Shown piece by piece: positions 17,022 through 31,970 of a DNA stretch of 32,300 nucleotides. The notes beneath the pieces were generated by a model. The model made no database searches. It was not told the DNA's origin and saw only the letters and a program-made list of their open reading frames with translations. Numbering within the stretch: the first letter of the stretch is position 1; every line of letters starts with the position of its first letter. The position numbers and the translations under genes are program-made. The DNA is from a candidate division KSB1 bacterium (lineage in GTDB: Bacteria; Zhuqueibacterota; JdFR-76; DREG01): contig JADFJB010000048.1 in the NCBI GenBank assembly GCA_022566355.1, positions 1-32,300 on the forward strand, written 5' to 3'.

Positions 17022-17127
17022 ATATCTTCGGAATCATGACTGGTGAAGAATTTTTAGTTAAGTTGCTATTCTAAATTGAAACGAATAACTGTATTTTAAT
17101 GGAATTGAACTGATGAAAGGAATTATG

Positions 17128-18552
17128 ATGAAAAAGATATTTACATGGGTAATCATTGTAATGGTTGCAACGTTTTTTGGATGTGATAATCAAAACAAAA
17201 TTGATCCCGCCACATTATCGATTTCCGGTGAAATGGAAGCGGAATTGACCAGTCCTCCGGCGGTCCCCAAACCGGTTGGTAATCGGGCGCCGATGAAATT
17301 AATCGTGAACATGGAAGTGGTGGAAAAAGAGTCCGAAATGATGGACGGTGTGACCTATATTTATTGGACTTTTGGCGGCAGCGTTCCCGGAAGTTTTATC
17401 CGAACCAGGCTTGGCGACGAGGTCGAATTTCATTTAAGAAATCATCCCGATAACAAATTACCCCATAATATTGATTTGCATGCTGTAACCGGACCTGGAG
17501 GCGGTGCGACATCTTCATTTGTGGCGCCTGGTCATGAAATCATGTTTTCCTTTAAAGTAATCAATCCCGGGTTGTATGTTTATCACTGCGCAACAGCCCC
17601 TGTAGGTATGCACATTGCTAACGGCATGTACGGTTTAATATTGGTTGAACCGGATGGCGGGCTGACACCGGTTGATAAGGAATATTACCTAATGCAAGGA
17701 GATTTTTATACCAGGGGCGCTTATGGAAAAACCGGGCTCCAGCCTTTTGATATGAAAAAAGCGATTATGGAAACCCCGGATTATGTGGTTTTCAACGGAA
17801 AGGTCGGGTCCATGACCGGAGATAACGCCATTAGTGCAAATGTGGGAGAAACGGTGAGATTATTCGTCGGCAATGGCGGTCCTAACCTGGTATCCTCATT
17901 TCATGTGATTGGGGAAATTTTTGATAGAGTAAATATTGAAGGCGGCAGCGCAATCAATAAAAATGTGCAAACCACATTGATTCCGGCAGGAGGATCGGCA
18001 ATTGTTGAATTTAAAGTAGATGTTCCTGGAACATTTATTATAGTGGATCACTCCATTTTCAGGGCTTTTAACAAGGGAGCGCTGGCAATGCTAAAAGTGA
18101 GTGGAGAAGAAAATAAAACCATCTATTCCGGAACACAACAGGAAGGAATATACCTGCCTGAAGGAGGCGCCGTTCAGGTAATGCCGGAAACTGCGCAAAC
18201 CGTTGAGGCAGTAAAAGCAAGATCCTTGTTCGAAAGGATACAGTTTGGTAAGCAGGTTTATGACCGCACATGTTTTGCATGTCACCAGGCCAATGGAGAA
18301 GGAATCATCAATGCATTCCCACCGCTGGCTCAATCTGACTATTTAAATGCGGATACCAACAGGGCTATTAGTACGATACTAAACGGACTTTCTGGAAAAA
18401 TCACAGTCAATGGTTTGGACTACGATAGCATTATGCCTAAGCTAGTTTTAACAGATGAAGAAGTGGCTAATGTGTTGACCTATGTTTACAACAGCTGGAA
18501 TAATAATAAAAAAGAAATTACTCCACAAATAGTAAACAAGTTAAGAAAATAA
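17128..18552 (+). CDS. nirK: Copper nitrite reductase with fused C-terminal cytochrome c
   Basis: 474 residues from ATG 17128, chosen because AAGGA lies six bases upstream and a lipobox follows (ATFFGC, Cys19). It reduces nitrite to NO in the periplasm. Copper ligands are visible. Type 1 has H113 (PHN), C154 (YHC), H162 (MHI) and M167. Type 2 has H118, H153 and H308 (VDHSIF). Catalytic D116 and H259 (SFHVIG) are present. After ~residue 365 a class I cytochrome c domain is fused: CFACH 382-386 with likely ligand M436 (IMPKL). The fusion brings the electron donor into the enzyme. The next genes are NirV- and Sco-like. Confidence 0.95.
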
Positions 18553-22775: not shown

Positions 22776-23723
22776 TTAATTTCTTAAAATCTTAAATTTT
22801 TGAATTCGGTCGTTTCCAAAGTCTACCACATAGGCAAACCCATTCATAATGGCAATGTCCGTTGGTTTTTCAAATTGGCCTGCATTCGAACCATTTGCTC
22901 CAAATTGATAAAGATAGCTCCCAATCGCATCAAAAACTTGAATACGATGATTATAAAAATCTACCACATAAATCCGTCCTTTAGCATCCAATTCAACAGC
23001 GTTGGCAACATTGAACTGTCCTGGAAGCTTATCTTCTCCGCTCCAACTGCCCCATGAATGTAGGGCTTTTCCATCTGGGTTGAATGTTTGTATCCGGTGA
23101 TTGTAAGCATCGGCGATAATAATATTTCCTTTGTTGTCAACCATAACGTCTGTCGGGTAATATAGTTGACCAAACTCATGGCCTTCTTTGCCGAATTGAG
23201 AAATGAATTTGCCTTGTGTATCAAATATTTGAATTCGGTTATTATAAAAACCAGCCACCAGCACATTCCCACTTCGGTCGAAATTCACTGCCGCCGGCGC
23301 GTCAAACTGGCCGGGCCCTTCTCCACCTTTACCCCATGAAAATTGATAAATGCCATTAGTGTCAAAAACCTGGACGCGATCATTGCCATATTCCGGCACG
23401 TAGACCCGGCCACCCGAATGAACAGCCAGATGCATGGGGCGATCAAATTCTCCCGGATCACTCCCGGCTGTTCCCCATTGGGTGATAAATTCGCCTGTTG
23501 CTGTAAACTTTTGAATACGATTGTTGCCGGCATCCGAAACAAAGACATTACCGGCAACATCCAGAGCAATCCCGATTGGCTGGTTGAATTGTCCAGGCGC
23601 ACTGCCCTCGCTGCCCCATTGGCTGACAAACTCAACACCCATTTGATTCTTTTTCGTGCACGCGATTGACCATACCTGGACGACAGCCAAAACGACAAAC
23701 AACAGCCACCTTGGCGTTTTCAT
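22776..23723 (-). CDS. NHL-repeat six-bladed propeller lipoprotein
   Basis: 315 residues. Lipobox WSIAC (Cys22), then six NHL repeats of ~45 residues. Each has the form G-QF-P-I--D--GNV-V-D--NNRIQ-F and a connector WG--G--PGQF. The start overlaps the stop of the upstream HMA gene by four bases (ATGA), with GAGG upstream, so translation is coupled. NHL propellers bind proteins or ligands; enzymatic residues are not evident. It is last of the eight-gene metal operon, and probably sits at the periplasmic face of a membrane. Its role there is unknown. Confidence 0.85.
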   Translation of the reverse strand: MKTPRWLLFVVLAVVQVWSIACTKKNQMGVEFVSQWGSEGSAPGQFNQPIGIALDVAGNVFVSDAGNNRIQKFTATGEFITQWGTAGSDPGEFDRPMHLAVHSGGRVYVPEYGNDRVQVFDTNGIYQFSWGKGGEGPGQFDAPAAVNFDRSGNVLVAGFYNNRIQIFDTQGKFISQFGKEGHEFGQLYYPTDVMVDNKGNIIIADAYNHRIQTFNPDGKALHSWGSWSGEDKLPGQFNVANAVELDAKGRIYVVDFYNHRIQVFDAIGSYLYQFGANGSNAGQFEKPTDIAIMNGFAYVVDFGNDRIQKFKILRN

Positions 23724-24244
23724 TCGATCACCTCAAATTCTTGGATAGTGAGCGTAAAAGGATGGGCATGATGCTGTTCAGGAGTTTCATGCTCGATAAT
23801 GCCTGTCACCCGAACACGATCTTCCGGTCCTTTTACCATCGAGCGCAGGTTCTTGAGCTGCTCATTCTCCTGAAGAATAAATTTCTCGTCCGCTTCGCTC
23901 ACCAAGAGAACCGTAGCCTCATCGGCTTGGTTTATGGTACCCACAACACTCACGGTTAGTTGTTTGGGAGTGAACCCCGCGTTCTTTACGGCAAGTTCAA
24001 TCCCTTCAACTTCTATGGATTTCCCTTGCTTGTTTTCAAGCATTGCCACAGCTTTATCCACATTTATTTCTACTTTCCCCACACCTTCAATTTTTTTAAG
24101 TTTCTTTTCCAGGCCATAGGCGCAGAAAGGACATGAGAGCCCATCGACGCGAATATCTGCTTTTTCAACCTGAGCTTGTGCAGTAGTAATTAGTCCTAAC
24201 GTAGAAAACATAGTGACATAAATAAAATATGATTGCCATTTCAT
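23720..24244 (-). CDS. Secreted heavy-metal-associated (HMA) protein, CxxC type
   Basis: 174 residues. Signal peptide (YVTMFSTLGLITTAQAQ), then an HMA fold with metal site LSCPFCAYGLEKKLKKIEGV and the closing strand VEGIELAVKNAGFTPKQL. A second domain of ~75 residues follows (VSVVGTI ... RVRVTGIIEHE ... LTIQEFEVIE). The UGA-containing protein at 25234-25818 has the same two-part layout and the same ending (EEFEV), so the two are paralogues; this one keeps both Cys. A His cluster EQHHAHP may add ligands. AGGAG precedes the start. It overlaps the NHL gene. Confidence 0.85.
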   Translation of the reverse strand: MKWQSYFIYVTMFSTLGLITTAQAQVEKADIRVDGLSCPFCAYGLEKKLKKIEGVGKVEINVDKAVAMLENKQGKSIEVEGIELAVKNAGFTPKQLTVSVVGTINQADEATVLLVSEADEKFILQENEQLKNLRSMVKGPEDRVRVTGIIEHETPEQHHAHPFTLTIQEFEVIE

Positions 24245-24259: not shown

Positions 24260-25165
24260 TCAAAATAGCAAAATTCGGGTTCCCAGCGAAAGACTCCAAT
24301 CGGTAGCCAACTGGATACCGTTAGGTTCGTTAATGATAGGATATTGGAACGACGCTTCAATCAACCAACGCCGACCGCCGACGTATTGCAGGCCTGGTGA
24401 TAGAAAGATTGTCGTGCCACCAGAGTTGTCTACACTTTGGTCGTTTATTTTATTCTTATTGGCCGTCGTGCCATTGATTTCCAGATAGGCGTTTAGCTGG
24501 GGCGATGGATAAATCTCATAAACGACGGGTAACAGCCTGTAGCCAAAAGCCAGATTATATGAAAAGCTGTTACCGAAATCGACCTGATCTCGAGAAGTGT
24601 TCAGATTGTAAATACCTTCCAGATAGACACCAGTCCGGCCTTTAACCCACCCTAAAACACTGGAAAAGAAATAGCCTGTCGACCCGGAGCCCAATGCCGG
24701 AGCTTTTTCTTCATCACCTGAAGCCAATTTAACCCCAACTTTCGAGGCTAGACGAACTGTTTCTTGTTTACGGTCGAACTGATAGACCAGGTACTTGGCA
24801 AAGAAACGCACGTCGCCTATACCGCTACTGGAAACATCCTGCGTACGCGTTTTTAGACTGATGTCCATGAATGGGAGAATAACACCCAGCTGAAATCTAT
24901 CGCTGAACAAATTGTAAGGGATGGCGACCGGCGTAATTCGAATAGTGATACGACGGTTCATATCATCGGTAATTTCTTCGCCATCCTGTAAAAGAGTTGC
25001 CTTACGAACGAATTTTGCAAATGTGCGAATTCCACCGCCCTCCAAGCCAAGCATAATTGGAGTATCGGTATGAATGGGGGGACCCTGGCTGAAGACTTTT
25101 TGCAATGGAAGCAATAATGATAAAACTACAAAACTCATTAATAATTTGCGGCATTGTTCTATCAA
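24260..25165 (-). CDS. Outer-membrane beta-barrel, MetA/transporter-like
   Basis: 301 residues from TTG 25165, chosen because GAGG lies eight bases upstream; the ATG at 25138 has no ribosome site. Signal peptide (LLMSFVVLSLLLPLQKVFSQ). The pattern RITPVAIPYNLFSDRFQLGV, SSSGIGDVRFFAKY, KVGVKLASGDEE and GSGSTGYFF recalls outer-membrane transporter proteins of the phenol-degradation MetA type. The terminal Phe suits a barrel. It is set between two HMA proteins, so it may move the metal or its ligand across the outer membrane. Substrate unknown. Confidence 0.75.
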   Translation of the reverse strand: MIEQCRKLLMSFVVLSLLLPLQKVFSQGPPIHTDTPIMLGLEGGGIRTFAKFVRKATLLQDGEEITDDMNRRITIRITPVAIPYNLFSDRFQLGVILPFMDISLKTRTQDVSSSGIGDVRFFAKYLVYQFDRKQETVRLASKVGVKLASGDEEKAPALGSGSTGYFFSSVLGWVKGRTGVYLEGIYNLNTSRDQVDFGNSFSYNLAFGYRLLPVVYEIYPSPQLNAYLEINGTTANKNKINDQSVDNSGGTTIFLSPGLQYVGGRRWLIEASFQYPIINEPNGIQLATDWSLSLGTRILLF

Positions 25166-25233: not shown

Positions 25234-25818
25234 TCATTTTTTTTGCGTCACTTCAAACTCTTCTACCAAAAGGCTCAAAGAGTTTTCTTTGTTAGTTTTA
25301 ACCCGGCCTGAAATGATAAAATTCTTTTTACCCGCCTTAAATGCCTCTCGTAATTTGGGCAACAAATCGATCTTTTCAGCTTGTTCTTTTTCTTTGTCCG
25401 CCTTTTTGGGTGGCGGTGAAACCGGCAAGAATATCTGCCCGGTATCGGGCATTTTAAAAGCTAAATCTGCAACCTGGGCAGTATCCTTCACAGGGATGAC
25501 AACAATCTCACCGGTGGCTTTAATATGAATATCCCGCGGTGAGAAATTTGCTTTTTCCACTGCTTCTCTAAGTATCATCGGGTTGAGAATTTCTCCTGGT
25601 TTTAAGATAATTAAAGCATTCTGATCTTCTAAACTTACATCCACATCTTGAACGCCTTCCAGGCGTTTTAGGGCATTCTGCACCCTGTTTGCTCAGCCAC
25701 CTCAGGTCATGCCAGCTATACCGATATGTACCTCTTGTATCTGTGCCTGAGAAACGAGCGGAAGACTTAGAAACAATAAGGCTGTGCTAATCAAGCTTAA
25801 TAGAATTCTTCTTAACAT
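25234..25818 (-). CDS. HMA metal-binding protein with two in-frame UGA (predicted selenocysteine, UxxU)
   Basis: 194 residues if both UGA codons are read. It starts at ATG 25818 behind a strong AGGAGG, with signal peptide LLSLISTALLFLSLPLVSQAQ. The HMA motif then reads GMT-UGA-GG-UGA-ANRVQNALKRLEGV, with UGA at 25702-25704 (residue 39) and 25693-25695 (residue 42). These are exactly the positions of the two metal-binding Cys in GMTCxxC. The rest of the frame is open. The C-terminal domain (FIISGRV ... LVEEFEV) matches the CxxC paralogue at 23720-24244. A hairpin suited to a bacterial SECIS follows. It is predicted to be a periplasmic metal (perhaps mercury) binding selenoprotein. Two chance nonsense mutations is the alternative. 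Confidence 0.8.
25651..25667 (-). promoter_or_regulatory. Candidate bacterial SECIS hairpin
   Basis: In the transcript AACGCC pairs with GGCGUU around loop UGGAA. The loop has G in its second position, as bacterial SECIS elements require. It begins 32 bases after the second UGA (usual window roughly 16-37) and 41 after the first. A weaker stem GGGUG/UGCCC lies between. Folding was done by eye. Confidence 0.5.
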
Positions 25819-25837
25819 TTTACCTCCTTTTTGATTT

Positions 25838-26137
25838 TCATAATACAAACGCTTTCACAATGACTTCCACAGATGGAACACCTTTAAATTTTCCATCATC
25901 AAGGTAAAGCCGGCAACAATCAGCCCCATCCGATTCAATGGCTCCTGCGACGTCTTGCCCGTTGACTAAAATTGTCGGTGAACCGTACTTTTTAACATAG
26001 GTTGGACTTTTTTCGTCTCCACGATTCCATTCTATCCATGACGGTTCAACCCCTGTTTGTTTGTGTGCAAGTTGTAATTGTAACCTGGCTTCATTTACAT
26101 TAGGACAATCACTATCGAAGATCAATTCGACTTTCAT
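25838..26137 (-). CDS. Small thioredoxin-fold protein of the metal operon
   Basis: 99 residues, cytoplasmic. A beta-strand and Cys motif FDSDCPNVNEARLQL is followed by YGSPTILVNGQDVAG (the cis-Pro segment of thioredoxin-like folds) and a vicinal Cys pair GADCCRLYLDDG. Similar small proteins accompany mercury or arsenic genes. The CC pair could bind a soft metal or shuttle thiols; this is an inference. AAGGAAAA precedes the start. It ends 19 bp before the UGA-containing HMA gene. Confidence 0.75.
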   Translation of the reverse strand: MKVELIFDSDCPNVNEARLQLQLAHKQTGVEPSWIEWNRGDEKSPTYVKKYGSPTILVNGQDVAGAIESDGADCCRLYLDDGKFKGVPSVEVIVKAFVL

Positions 26138-26209: not shown

Positions 26210-26545
26210 TCAGCCTCCGGAATCAGCTTTTTTCGCCTTGTAACCCATTTTATTGATAGCGTCAATTACATCCTGCTCACTCACTTTTTCAGGATCTACC
26301 GTCACTTCAGCTGTGCCATCAGCAAAACTGGCTTTGACTTCTATTACACCATCGATCTTATTGACTGCCATTTTTACATTGACTTCGCAGCCTGTGCATG
26401 TCATACCTTCCACGTCACAAGTAATAACTTTTGTCGAGATGTTATCAACCTTTGCAGTCAGCTCCAGTTCGGCGTTTTTACTCGAGCAGCCGAATACTGC
26501 TAACAATGGGAGCAATACAAATGCCAATATAAAATTCCGTTTCAT
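26210..26545 (-). CDS. merP: MerP-like periplasmic heavy-metal-binding lipoprotein
   Basis: 111 residues. Lipoprotein signal (LAFVLLPLLAVFGC, Cys20), then one HMA domain: VITCDVEGMTCTGCEVNVKM with the metal-binding CxxC, ending VIDAINKMGYKAKKA. MerP captures Hg(II) in the periplasm and hands it to MerT; other copper/zinc HMA proteins look similar. The MerT gene 53 bp upstream favours the Mer reading. Being lipid-anchored differs from soluble proteobacterial MerP. AAGGAG lies before the ATG. Confidence 0.85.
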   Translation of the reverse strand: MKRNFILAFVLLPLLAVFGCSSKNAELELTAKVDNISTKVITCDVEGMTCTGCEVNVKMAVNKIDGVIEVKASFADGTAEVTVDPEKVSEQDVIDAINKMGYKAKKADSGG

Positions 26546-26598: not shown

Positions 26599-26940
26599 TT
26601 ATAAAGGTAAATAGGGCAAAATGTATGGAAATGCGACGAGCATAATTGCCATGATCGCCACGATCCATAACATCAAGCGCTGGTTTCGTCGGCTCTGTGG
26701 TGTCTGGCAAACTTGCCCTGGCGCACATTCAACATCTCGTTGAGGTCGATAGGCGAAGAAAAATCCCACAGCTAAAAAAACCACTGTAATGCCGATGAAA
26801 AAAGGCCGGTAGGGTTCAAGGGCTATTGCAAACGCTACACCTCCGATTCCAAGAAAAGTAAGAACCAACGGCCCTATGCAACAAGCCGAAGCAAGAATCC
26901 CAGTAACAATAGTACCGCTATTAATCATTGAGTCTTTCAT
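26599..26940 (-). CDS. merT: MerT-like mercuric transport protein
   Basis: 113 residues, three membrane helices. The first helix has the paired Cys of MerT (SACCIGPLVLTFLGIGG). A second Cys pair (VECAPGQVC) lies in the loop between helices two and three. MerT takes Hg(II) from MerP and passes it inward, normally to mercuric reductase MerA, which is not in this window. GGAG lies nine bases upstream. It starts 15 bp after the ArsR-type gene and is surely in its operon. Confidence 0.88.
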   Translation of the reverse strand: MKDSMINSGTIVTGILASACCIGPLVLTFLGIGGVAFAIALEPYRPFFIGITVVFLAVGFFFAYRPQRDVECAPGQVCQTPQSRRNQRLMLWIVAIMAIMLVAFPYILPYLPL

Positions 26941-26955
26941 GATTCATGTCTCCTA

Positions 26956-27315
26956 TTAATCATCAATTTCAAAAAGTTCTATCAACAAATCTTTAAATAT
27001 ACCTGACGTCATTTGATAATAAATAGTTGGTCCTTCCCGGCGCTGTTGAATAACTCCTCTATCGCGTAATTTACGGAGTTGATGAGATATTGCTGATACC
27101 CCCATTCCCATAATATCGGCCATGTCACAAACGCAAAGCTCGTCGCTTTGAATAAGAAGAAACAACATTTTTAATCTTGTTGCATTTCCAGCCATATCCA
27201 AAAGATCAGCAAGTTTATCCAGATCATCTTTCTGTAGCAATTGCTTTCTGAGGGATAGTAGTTTCTCTATATCTACTTGTTGTCGTATACATGTTTCAGT
27301 TGTAAGCTCTTTCAT
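26956..27315 (-). CDS. ArsR/SmtB-family metal-responsive repressor
   Basis: 119 residues. The winged helix-turn-helix has the metal site ELCVCD in the alpha-3 position, the signature of ArsR/CadC repressors. Recognition helix region MGVSAISHQLRKLRDRGVI, wing QRREGPTIYYQM. Extra Cys in the N-terminal arm (TETC) resembles CadC, so Cd, Pb, Zn or Hg are possible inducers. It is the first gene of the operon, with an operator-like inverted repeat 18 bp upstream, so it is probably autoregulated. Confidence 0.9.
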   Translation of the reverse strand: MKELTTETCIRQQVDIEKLLSLRKQLLQKDDLDKLADLLDMAGNATRLKMLFLLIQSDELCVCDMADIMGMGVSAISHQLRKLRDRGVIQQRREGPTIYYQMTSGIFKDLLIELFEIDD

Positions 27316-28554: not shown

Positions 28555-29490
28555 TTATATACTTAGCGACCGGAATTCGAGTACATTAACACATCTTGCT
28601 GTGACAATTTTTGGATTGCCACCATCAGCCGGAATGATGGCAAAATTGCGATTATATGCGTAATACAACTCTTTGCCTGAATAGGTGGAATACAGAATTT
28701 GACTACCATCGGGGGACCAGTTAGGGCTCCAATCGGGTCCTGGAGTTGATACGATTTTGTAAGTGGTATCTGCCACTAAATCGAGGATAAAAATATCAGT
28801 GGTGTAAAAATTGATACGATCCGGATTCTCTGCAGCATTGAAGGCAATCTTATTTCCGTCGGGAGACCACGAGAATCCGCCAACACTAAAGGTTTTGCCA
28901 TTGGTCTTTTGATCTCCTTTAACCGGTTCTTTTAAAGCATCGGATATTTCAAATGTCCATAAATGCGAATGGCTATATTCTTTACGAACCACTGAAAATC
29001 CACCCATATGATCTTTTCTTCCCTTTGCATATTTGGATTCAGGCTCGGTTGCTGTAAAAGCAATCTTTTCCCCATCCGACGACCATTCATAATTGGAAAC
29101 ACCGCTTTCGGAATCTGTTAAACGGACCGCTTCCCCACCATTGGGCCGAATCGCGAAAATTTGGTTTTTGTCCTTGCTGCGATTCGAGGTAAAGGCCAGC
29201 CATTTTGAATCCGGCGACCACTTCGGATTGGATGTCGATTTTTTTCCACTCGTTAATTGAAATGTATCTCCGCTTGAAACATTTGCCAACCAGATGTGGG
29301 TAATATTGGCATTCTCCTCAAAATCAGCTCCTCTTACCGTATATGCCACAAAATTTCCATCCGGTGAAATTCTAACCGAACCCACAGATTTCACTTTGAT
29401 GAGTTCATCGATAGTGGGAACGTGTTTGCTGTCTTTTGCAAAAAGGGATGATGAAAACAAAAGGATAAAAAGTATGATTCGCTTCGTCAT
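28555..29490 (-). pseudogene. S9-family peptidase, N-terminal propeller only
   Basis: 311 residues: signal peptide (MTKRIILFILLFSSSLFA), DELIKVKSVGSVRISPDG, then TolB/PD40-type blades (W-SPDSKWLAFTSNRS, EWSSDGEKIAFTAT, SWSPDGNKIAFNAA, NWSPDGSQILYSTYSG). This is the propeller half of dipeptidyl-peptidase/oligopeptidase S9 enzymes of ~650 residues. The alpha/beta-hydrolase catalytic half (GxSxGG, Asp, His) is absent. The frame leaves homology after PKIVTA (near 28610) and ends in an unrelated short tail. A strong ribosome site (AGGAG) precedes the start. The gene is probably disrupted, with its far end at 27482-27691. Confidence 0.75.
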
Positions 29491-30397: not shown

Positions 30398-31970
30398 CTA
30401 CTGCGCCGCCGCCAAAGCAAACAACAAATCCACATAACTCTTCTCGATTTCCGCCAGTCCGGCAACACTGGAACCTTCCGCCGGTTCGATAACCATGTAC
30501 TCGTTTGGAGCATGGGCGCCAGAGCCATGGCCGAGTCCGTTAAAAACCAGCGGTAATCCGAGACGTTCCGTAAACTGGTAGAACGGCGCACTTCCGGCCA
30601 GTCGCGGCCAAATCTCTTTTGTACTGCGCCATTTATTAAAAACGCTGATTGCTGCTTGCACAAGGGGTGCTTCAACAGATGTTTGAGCCGCAGGATAGCT
30701 GGAAAGTTTCCGTAATTCAATATCGGCGAAGCCGTGTTTGTCGAGATGAGCCCGAACCAGCTCCAGGGAATGATCCGGATCGACGTTTGGCGGCAACCTG
30801 GAATCGACCTTCGCAGTAGCCACATGCGGCAAGATGGTCTTCACACCTTCTCCGGTGTAGCCGCCCCAGATGCCGTCAACATTGAGTGTCACTTCGTACA
30901 GATAACGCAGAAGCGCCTCTTCACCGCTAATGCCATCAATCCACTTTTCGACATTGAGCAGCTTCTTGATCCCGGCTTCATCCCAATTTTTCAGCGCGCC
31001 ATTGATGAGACGCTGCTCTTCTTCTGTGGGAGGGCGAACGTTATCGTAATAGCCATCGATCAGGATTGTATTGCCATCGGGTGTGGTCATGGACGCCAGT
31101 GCCTGGGCCAAGCGCAAAACAGGAGCATCCACCAGCGCTTTGTAAGAGCCATGAATCTCGGAATATGTCGGACCGCCCCAGTCGCCGCCTTTAGCTTCCA
31201 TTTCAAAATAGAGGATACCTTTTACTCCCATACTCAGGCGGATTTCGCCGGTTAAACTTTGGGAATTAAAGGGAAAGAAAACCCCGTCGGCAGTGCGCAG
31301 GCGTTCCTCAAAATGGTCGACCAGTTCCGGGTAATTGGGCGAACCCAACTCTTCCTCACCCTCTGCTAAAACCATCAGGTTTACCGGTTAAACTACCGGT
31401 TACAGCAATGATAGACTCCACAGCATTCAGAAATGCCCGCTCAGGTCCCTTCTGGTTGGTCGCGCCTCGTCCCATGAGCACTTTACCAAAGTCCTTCTCT
31501 ACAAGGTTGGCGGCAAAGGGCGGTGATTCCCAATCTTCCGGATTTACTGGTTGGACATCGTACATCATGTAGATCATCAGTGTCTTAGCCGCTCCAGCGT
31601 CATAGTAGCCCCACACCCCTGGATGTCCTGATGTGGCTACGACTTCAGTTTCGGTAAAACCCATCTCGGCAAGGTCGTTTTTTACCATTCGCGCCATTTC
31701 CTGGATACCGTTGTTCTGGGCGCTGATCGATGGCTGACGAATCCAGCGCTGAAGCTTTGCCAGATGTCCGTCCAGATTGTTGTCAATGTAGGAGTAAACA
31801 TCGTTGTGCTCACCACTGTAGGGCGCAATGGTCGATGGATCGAAGGCTTCGTCTGTAGATAAAGAAAATTGTGGACGCTGTTGAGTGTTGTCCGGAGCAC
31901 AACTAATTACAATAAGTAAAACAAGAAAAAAGAATAAGCAATAAAGTATGAATATTTGTTTTCTTAACAT
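30398..31970 (-). pseudogene. M20-family metallopeptidase lipoprotein, split by one base
   Basis: Two frames (31970-31356 and 31375-30398) make one ~520-residue M20 dipeptidase. The N-terminal frame has lipobox VISC (Cys24), IRQPSIS and MMYDVQPVNPEDWESPP, and ends after AVTGSL. The other resumes as PVNLMVLAEGEEELGSPNYP. Dropping one A in GTTTAACCGG (near 31393) joins them. Metal ligands deviate: HxD is M-Y-D (MMYDVQP) and the bridging D is N (GRGATNQKG). The Glu-Glu pair (EGEEELGSP), D (KVDSRLPPN) and His (GLGHGSGAHAPNE) remain. It is GC-richer than its surroundings. A strong AAGGAG precedes the start. Confidence 0.8.

Follow-up and report, generated by a model that had tools for sequence, protein, structure and literature searches.

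The locus examined here raises the question of whether a gene with two in-frame TGA codons, lying in a mercury-type gene cluster of a candidate division KSB1 bacterium, is a broken reading frame or encodes a selenoprotein that binds metal through selenium. The window (the whole stretch of 32,300 nucleotides that was analyzed) contains this gene on the minus strand, starting with ATG at 25818 and ending with a stop TGA at 25234-25236 (194 codons). With TGA read as a residue, the product (P0001, here called the UxxU protein) begins MLRRILLSLISTALLFLSLPLVSQAQIQEVHIGIAGMTUGGUANRVQNALKRLEGV. The features on which the reading depends are the following.

25234..25818, minus strand: gene for a secreted HMA protein with a UxxU metal site, 194 aa (translation with TGA read, Pfam HMA, AlphaFold2 model)
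25702..25704, minus strand: first in-frame TGA, codon 39, putatively read as selenocysteine (translation)
25693..25695, minus strand: second in-frame TGA, codon 42, putatively read as selenocysteine (translation)
25822..25828, minus strand: Shine-Dalgarno sequence AGGAGGT (sequence)

Codons 39 and 42 are both metal-site positions of the HMA domain (GMT-U-GG-U), and no other internal stop was present in all 194 codons, in agreement with the first-pass annotation, which had described UGA only at the two metal-site codons of an exported HMA protein. The predicted product consists of a signal peptide (residues about 1-26), an HMA domain (29-98), scoring 51.6 bits against Pfam HMA (PF00403; cut-off 24.8) and thus passing the gathering score, and a C-terminal domain of unassigned family (99-194), about 95 residues for which a Pfam search returned no family. 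An AlphaFold2 model built from 14 sequences had a pLDDT of >90 across the HMA domain, with the C-terminal domain poorly modelled, and was used instead of a model from the single sequence (pLDDT 40.5, unusable); its closest structural matches were ATP7B domains, CopZ and MerP. The ribosome site upstream is as strong as had been claimed, but is spaced only ~4 nt from the ATG. Gene callers end this gene at UGA, and the listed open reading frame (149 aa) starts at an internal GTG at 25683 and loses the N-terminus, as had been foreseen; since that frame has neither signal peptide nor metal site, we dismissed the internal start as the source of the main product. Such proteins are therefore easily missed.

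The gene is part of a same-strand run in the order ArsR-MerT-MerP-like-DF-HMA (UxxU)-OMP-HMA (C..C paralogue)-NHL. Promoter- and terminator-like sites in the cluster were at or near chance level, and the assignment to one operon was therefore made from gene order and spacing. The genes flanking the UxxU gene are as follows.

26956..27315, minus strand: ArsR/SmtB-type metalloregulator, first gene of the cluster (NF033788, 77.7 bits, cut-off 55)
26599..26940, minus strand: MerT-type mercuric transport membrane protein (Pfam MerT, 94.1 bits, above cut-off)
26210..26545, minus strand: MerP-like HMA lipoprotein with an ordinary GMTCTGC site (Pfam HMA, 52.3 bits)
25838..26137, minus strand: Cys form (SDCPN) of a DF-family protein, immediately ahead of the UxxU gene (NF049942, 49.6 bits, under the cut-off of 70)
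24260..25165, minus strand: putative outer-membrane beta-barrel protein (Pfam Phenol_MetA_deg, 48.1 bits)
23720..24244, minus strand: C..C paralogue, a secreted HMA protein whose C-terminal domain is shorter, with the motif GLSCPFC (29% identity over 101 aa)
22776..23723, minus strand: NHL-repeat protein, final gene of the run (Pfam NHL)

The CxxC paralogue that the first-pass annotation had noted in the same cluster is the gene at 23720-24244; it matches DUF5818 with an E value of 0.013, a match seen in the paralogue and not in the UxxU protein.

The earlier suggestion that homologues might carry U/C or C/C at the metal-site columns was borne out for both combinations. In 151 alignable HMA segments, drawn from relatives and from other bacteria, these columns were C..C in 149, U..U in one (the UxxU protein) and U..C in one; the UxxU protein thus has in-frame UGA where homologues carry Cys, which is one criterion for a bacterial selenoprotein. 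The U..C homologue is a secreted HMA-rhodanese protein (GMTUHSC) encoded by G005 and G006, both genomes of the same order; the count took in only the G006 copy (L111).

L112, 1612-2352 (+), and L111, 1145-2068 (+): HMA-rhodanese fusion, UxxC (GMTUHSC), scoring 68.9 and 63.4 bits, respectively, against NF041115 (cut-off 95)

A second U..U orthologue was found neither in 82 genomes of the phylum nor among the matches of genome-contig searches, both searches being of limited depth, and the HMA matches to the UxxU protein in genome-contig and plasmid searches were all distant.

In the published model of bacterial Sec insertion elements (PMC13188914), a stem of 4-16 bp carries a 3-9 nt loop with G in position 1 or 2, the loop lies 16-37 nt past the UGA, and the folding energy does not exceed -7.5 kcal/mol. 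Two candidates lie downstream of the UGA codons.

25651..25667, minus strand: SECIS-like hairpin for codon 42, AACGCCU-GGA-AGGCGUU, 7 bp (-7.9 kcal/mol)
25670..25686, minus strand: weaker hairpin, candidate for codon 39, AGGGU-GCAGAAU-GCCCU (-5.0 kcal/mol)

The loop of the codon 42 hairpin opens with GG, 32 nt past the UGA, and the hairpin lies within all limits of the published bSECIS model. This is the hairpin (25667-25651) that had been described as starting 32 bases past the second UGA, except that it is the apical loop, and not the stem, that lies at this distance. For codon 39 the proposed folding was less successful: the loop opens with G, 20 nt past the UGA, but the energy of the hairpin misses the published limit. 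The strong hairpin is 41 nt from codon 39, beyond the usual range, and codon 39 may have its own weak hairpin or share the strong one of codon 42. Hairpins as strong as those of codons 39 and 42 follow 6.7% and 2.4%, respectively, of 1171 Cys codons in the organism's own genome; when a GG loop and a stem of 6 bp or more are required, only 0.26% of Cys codons have a hairpin that equals the codon 42 one in strength. The GG restriction was picked after the sites were seen, although it agrees with the published G[G/U] pattern.

The source bin (4.62 Mb, 213 contigs, rated 98.5% complete) contains three other genes with UGA at positions typical of Sec: selD, and two that came from a scan of 0.8 Mb of the bin for TGA codons flanked on both sides by coding sequence.

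L209, 10837-11895 on contig C12 of the bin (-): SelD, 352 aa, with UGA at the catalytic Cys (LAKTCGUAAKISP; 374.8 bits, cut-off 125)
L212, 6934-7536 on contig C1 (-): OsmC-like gene, UxxT (AATGGULTGTF; Pfam OsmC, 55.9 bits, cut-off 27.5)
L224, 18220-19716 on contig C7 (-): secreted ResA/AhpC-TSA-like protein, ~455 aa, UxxC (FASWUAGC; 30.9 bits, cut-off 26)

OsmC (UxxT) and Prx/TlpA-like (UxxC) proteins rank among the established predicted families of selenoproteins (PMC9312934, PMC13188914); the ResA-like protein scored low against NF041054 (51 versus 300 bits). All three genes have a SECIS-like hairpin past the UGA: GCGCGCU-GGA-AGCGCGU at 26 nt (-9.8 kcal/mol) in the OsmC-like gene, which has the apex CUGGAAG in common with the codon 42 hairpin of the UxxU gene, UCAGCCC-GGUC-GGGUUGG at 17 nt (-8.7 kcal/mol) in selD, and one at 23 nt (-8.6 kcal/mol) in the ResA-like gene. 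In the HMA-rhodanese genes of the same order, hairpins were found at 23 nt (-6.4 and -9.0 kcal/mol). Among the candidates read in a second sample of the bin (0.4 Mb), there was no further clear selenoprotein. Without Sec decoding by the organism, it would be hard to account for four genes, otherwise open, with UGA at Sec-type positions.

The machinery for doing so was recovered in part. Of the sel genes named in the first-pass annotation, selD is present, itself with a UGA, but selA gave no match in the bin, selB none above cut-off (the best, at 191 versus 242 bits, being a 400-residue EF-Tu-like ORF) and tRNA-Sec none, either by Rfam search (150 of 355 candidates scored) or by a pattern search without such a limit; the Rfam candidates were ordinary Tyr, Ser, Leu, Lys and Trp tRNAs. 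Among relatives, selA occurs in the two same-family genomes and in three of the four from the same order, with selB adjoining it, and a tRNA-Sec with anticodon UCA was found in G001, G004, G005 and G006. With selA present in both genomes of the same family, an assembly gap is the simplest explanation for the missing genes, and we consider such a gap probable for selA, selB and tRNA-Sec. In G002 and G004 an MFS gene adjoins selA; this gene, too, is missing from the source bin, as expected if the whole selA locus is unassembled, although real loss would look alike. Since selAB and selC are on different contigs in the relatives, one gap may not explain both absences. A wrongly binned contig was ruled out, in that the tetranucleotide composition of the window fits the bin (0.08 for the window, compared to 0.085 ± 0.012 for the bin's own segments and at least 0.19 for other genomes).

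These absences speak for two readings in which the UxxU gene does not yield a selenoprotein. If Sec decoding is gone or disappearing from the lineage, the UGAs would terminate translation and the gene would be a relic, as the lack of selA, selB and tRNA-Sec matches in a nearly complete bin, together with that of the neighboring MFS gene, would suggest. SelD would then be non-functional, however, and four separate genes would have stayed otherwise open around their UGAs. Moreover, in the bin of G002, a same-family genome that is 95% complete, selA and selB are present and yet no tRNA-Sec was found, so such gaps occur and a missing tRNA-Sec is not decisive; we regard a relic as unlikely. The first-pass annotation had named the lack of selABCD and tRNA-Sec as evidence against its own proposal, and the lack of selABC and tRNA-Sec is, literally, what the assembly shows, but the sister genomes, and the further selenoprotein genes in the bin, outweigh this. 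Opal-suppressor tRNAs resembling tRNA-Sec have been described, and with selABC absent such a tRNA might insert Cys or some other residue at the UGAs, so that the product would be an ordinary CxxC protein. This is very improbable, given that the anticodon UCA occurs in 0 of the 40 tRNA genes listed for this genome (150 of 299 candidates scored) and that the UGAs stand at the Sec positions of known kinds of selenoprotein and are followed by SECIS-like hairpins. Least credible of all is misreading of TGC or TGT codons as TGA by sequencing or assembly error: a frameshifted peptidase gene in the window (30398-31970) shows that errors or decay exist, but two separate errors would have to fall on exactly both metal-site codons (two random nonsense changes in a CxxC gene would strike precisely codons 39 and 42 with a chance of ~3e-4), and the same genome has three further selenoprotein-type genes. 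Both codon 39 and codon 42 very probably encode selenocysteine, because three more UGA genes of known selenoprotein kinds, the codon 42 hairpin and the C/C and U/C homologues all point that way.

What the selenium would do is a separate matter. A mainly redox role (as a selenol/diselenide oxidoreductase), or one in binding copper or another metal but not mercury, is a possibility to which we give less weight. HMA domains also bind Cu(I) and Zn(II); the top matches among solved structures are copper ATPase domains, a copper nitrite reductase is present in the window, UxxU resembles a redox motif, and selenoproteins of known function are mostly redox proteins (PMC9312934). Against this, the fold of the UxxU protein is that of HMA and not of thioredoxin, and the adjoining genes are those of MerT, a MerP-like protein and ArsR. 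The MerT and MerP-like neighbors point to mercury; no merA was seen among the ORFs read in the window (the profile scan covered the cluster proteins), and the case for mercury therefore comes from the neighboring genes only.

Our preferred reading, which we hold to be probable, is that the UxxU gene encodes an exported metal-binding selenoprotein, likely for the capture of a soft metal (probably Hg(II)). We infer Sec insertion, export, the identity of the metal and a trapping role, which would fit together as follows. The ribosome would read both UGAs as Sec, aided by the stem-loops just downstream, and the HMA domain (GMTUGGU) would offer two selenolate metal ligands in place of thiolates. 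Made alongside MerT, the MerP-like lipoprotein and the ArsR-type regulator, the protein would most likely act in the periplasm, capturing a soft metal ion (probably Hg(II)) that it would then either hold or pass to its neighbors. Selenolates hold soft metals, e.g., Hg(II), more tightly than do thiolates; trapping Hg(II) or relaying it would therefore be the likeliest role of the protein, and two selenolates gripping Hg(II) is plausible for this site. Selenium has rarely been reported to serve as a metal ligand instead of a catalyst. The U/U protein, beside its C..C paralogue and the C..C MerP-like protein, offers natural variants for testing selenium-held mercury.

The selenium-based trap proposed in the first-pass annotation therefore keeps its two Sec residues, but UxxU metal-binding selenoproteins are an already predicted family (NF041115 UxxU_metal_bind, metal-binding (seleno)protein, UxxU with 2 Sec [PMC13188914]), and a UxxU "putative mercuric reductase" from a study of Olavius symbionts is listed in PMC9312934. 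No experimental study of a UxxU metal-binding selenoprotein was found in the open literature consulted. NF041115 and the UxxU protein are alike in having an HMA-type domain with Sec at both metal-site positions. The NF041115 model, however, has 74 residues and a cut-off of 95, against which the UxxU protein scores 51.5 (and the MerP-like lipoprotein 74.9 bits, also under the cut-off), and the domain is here secreted, followed by a C-terminal domain of ~95 residues, and encoded in an ArsR-MerT cluster. We count it as a variant because it is under the NF041115 cut-off, is predicted to be exported and has a C-terminal domain without known family; what is new here is this predicted variant architecture. 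More tentatively, it may be a dedicated periplasmic two-selenolate Hg trap whose ancestor was a CxxC HMA protein of a MerT/ArsR operon and whose origin is independent of NF041115, although we think this rather doubtful. With MerP (TIGR02052) it shares being an exported HMA protein alongside MerT, but MerP has Cys-Cys ligands and half the length, and the UxxU protein scores 35.4 bits against it (cut-off 92.55); a Sec form of MerP was recorded in the GOS survey, its Sec motif not given (PMC2398784). The HMA-rhodanese proteins resemble it in being secreted and in having an HMA domain whose first metal-site residue is Sec, and their genes, too, have a SECIS-like hairpin; they differ in having UxxC, not UxxU, and a fused rhodanese domain. 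The MerT/CopZ fusion-like selenoprotein NF045683 likewise combines selenium with mercury-type transport and a CopZ-like HMA domain, but is a MerT-HMA fusion, whereas these are separate genes here (24 bits versus a cut-off of 375).

In G004 (L153, 3202-4256 [-]), a gene for a secreted double-HMA C..C protein is immediately preceded by a selD fragment, an adjacency that suggests a link between selenium genes and metal-binding genes. Elsewhere in the window, the copper nitrite reductase (17113-18552 [+]; TIGR02376, 346 bits, above cut-off) has a C-terminal cytochrome c-like extension. The frameshifted peptidase gene (minus strand) is that of an M20 dipeptidase in two frames (31970-31356 and 31375-30398), either through a sequencing error or as a pseudogene, and a Dpp5-like peptidase gene (28555-29490 [-]) covers its profile only to about position 275 of 655 and is either truncated or frameshifted.
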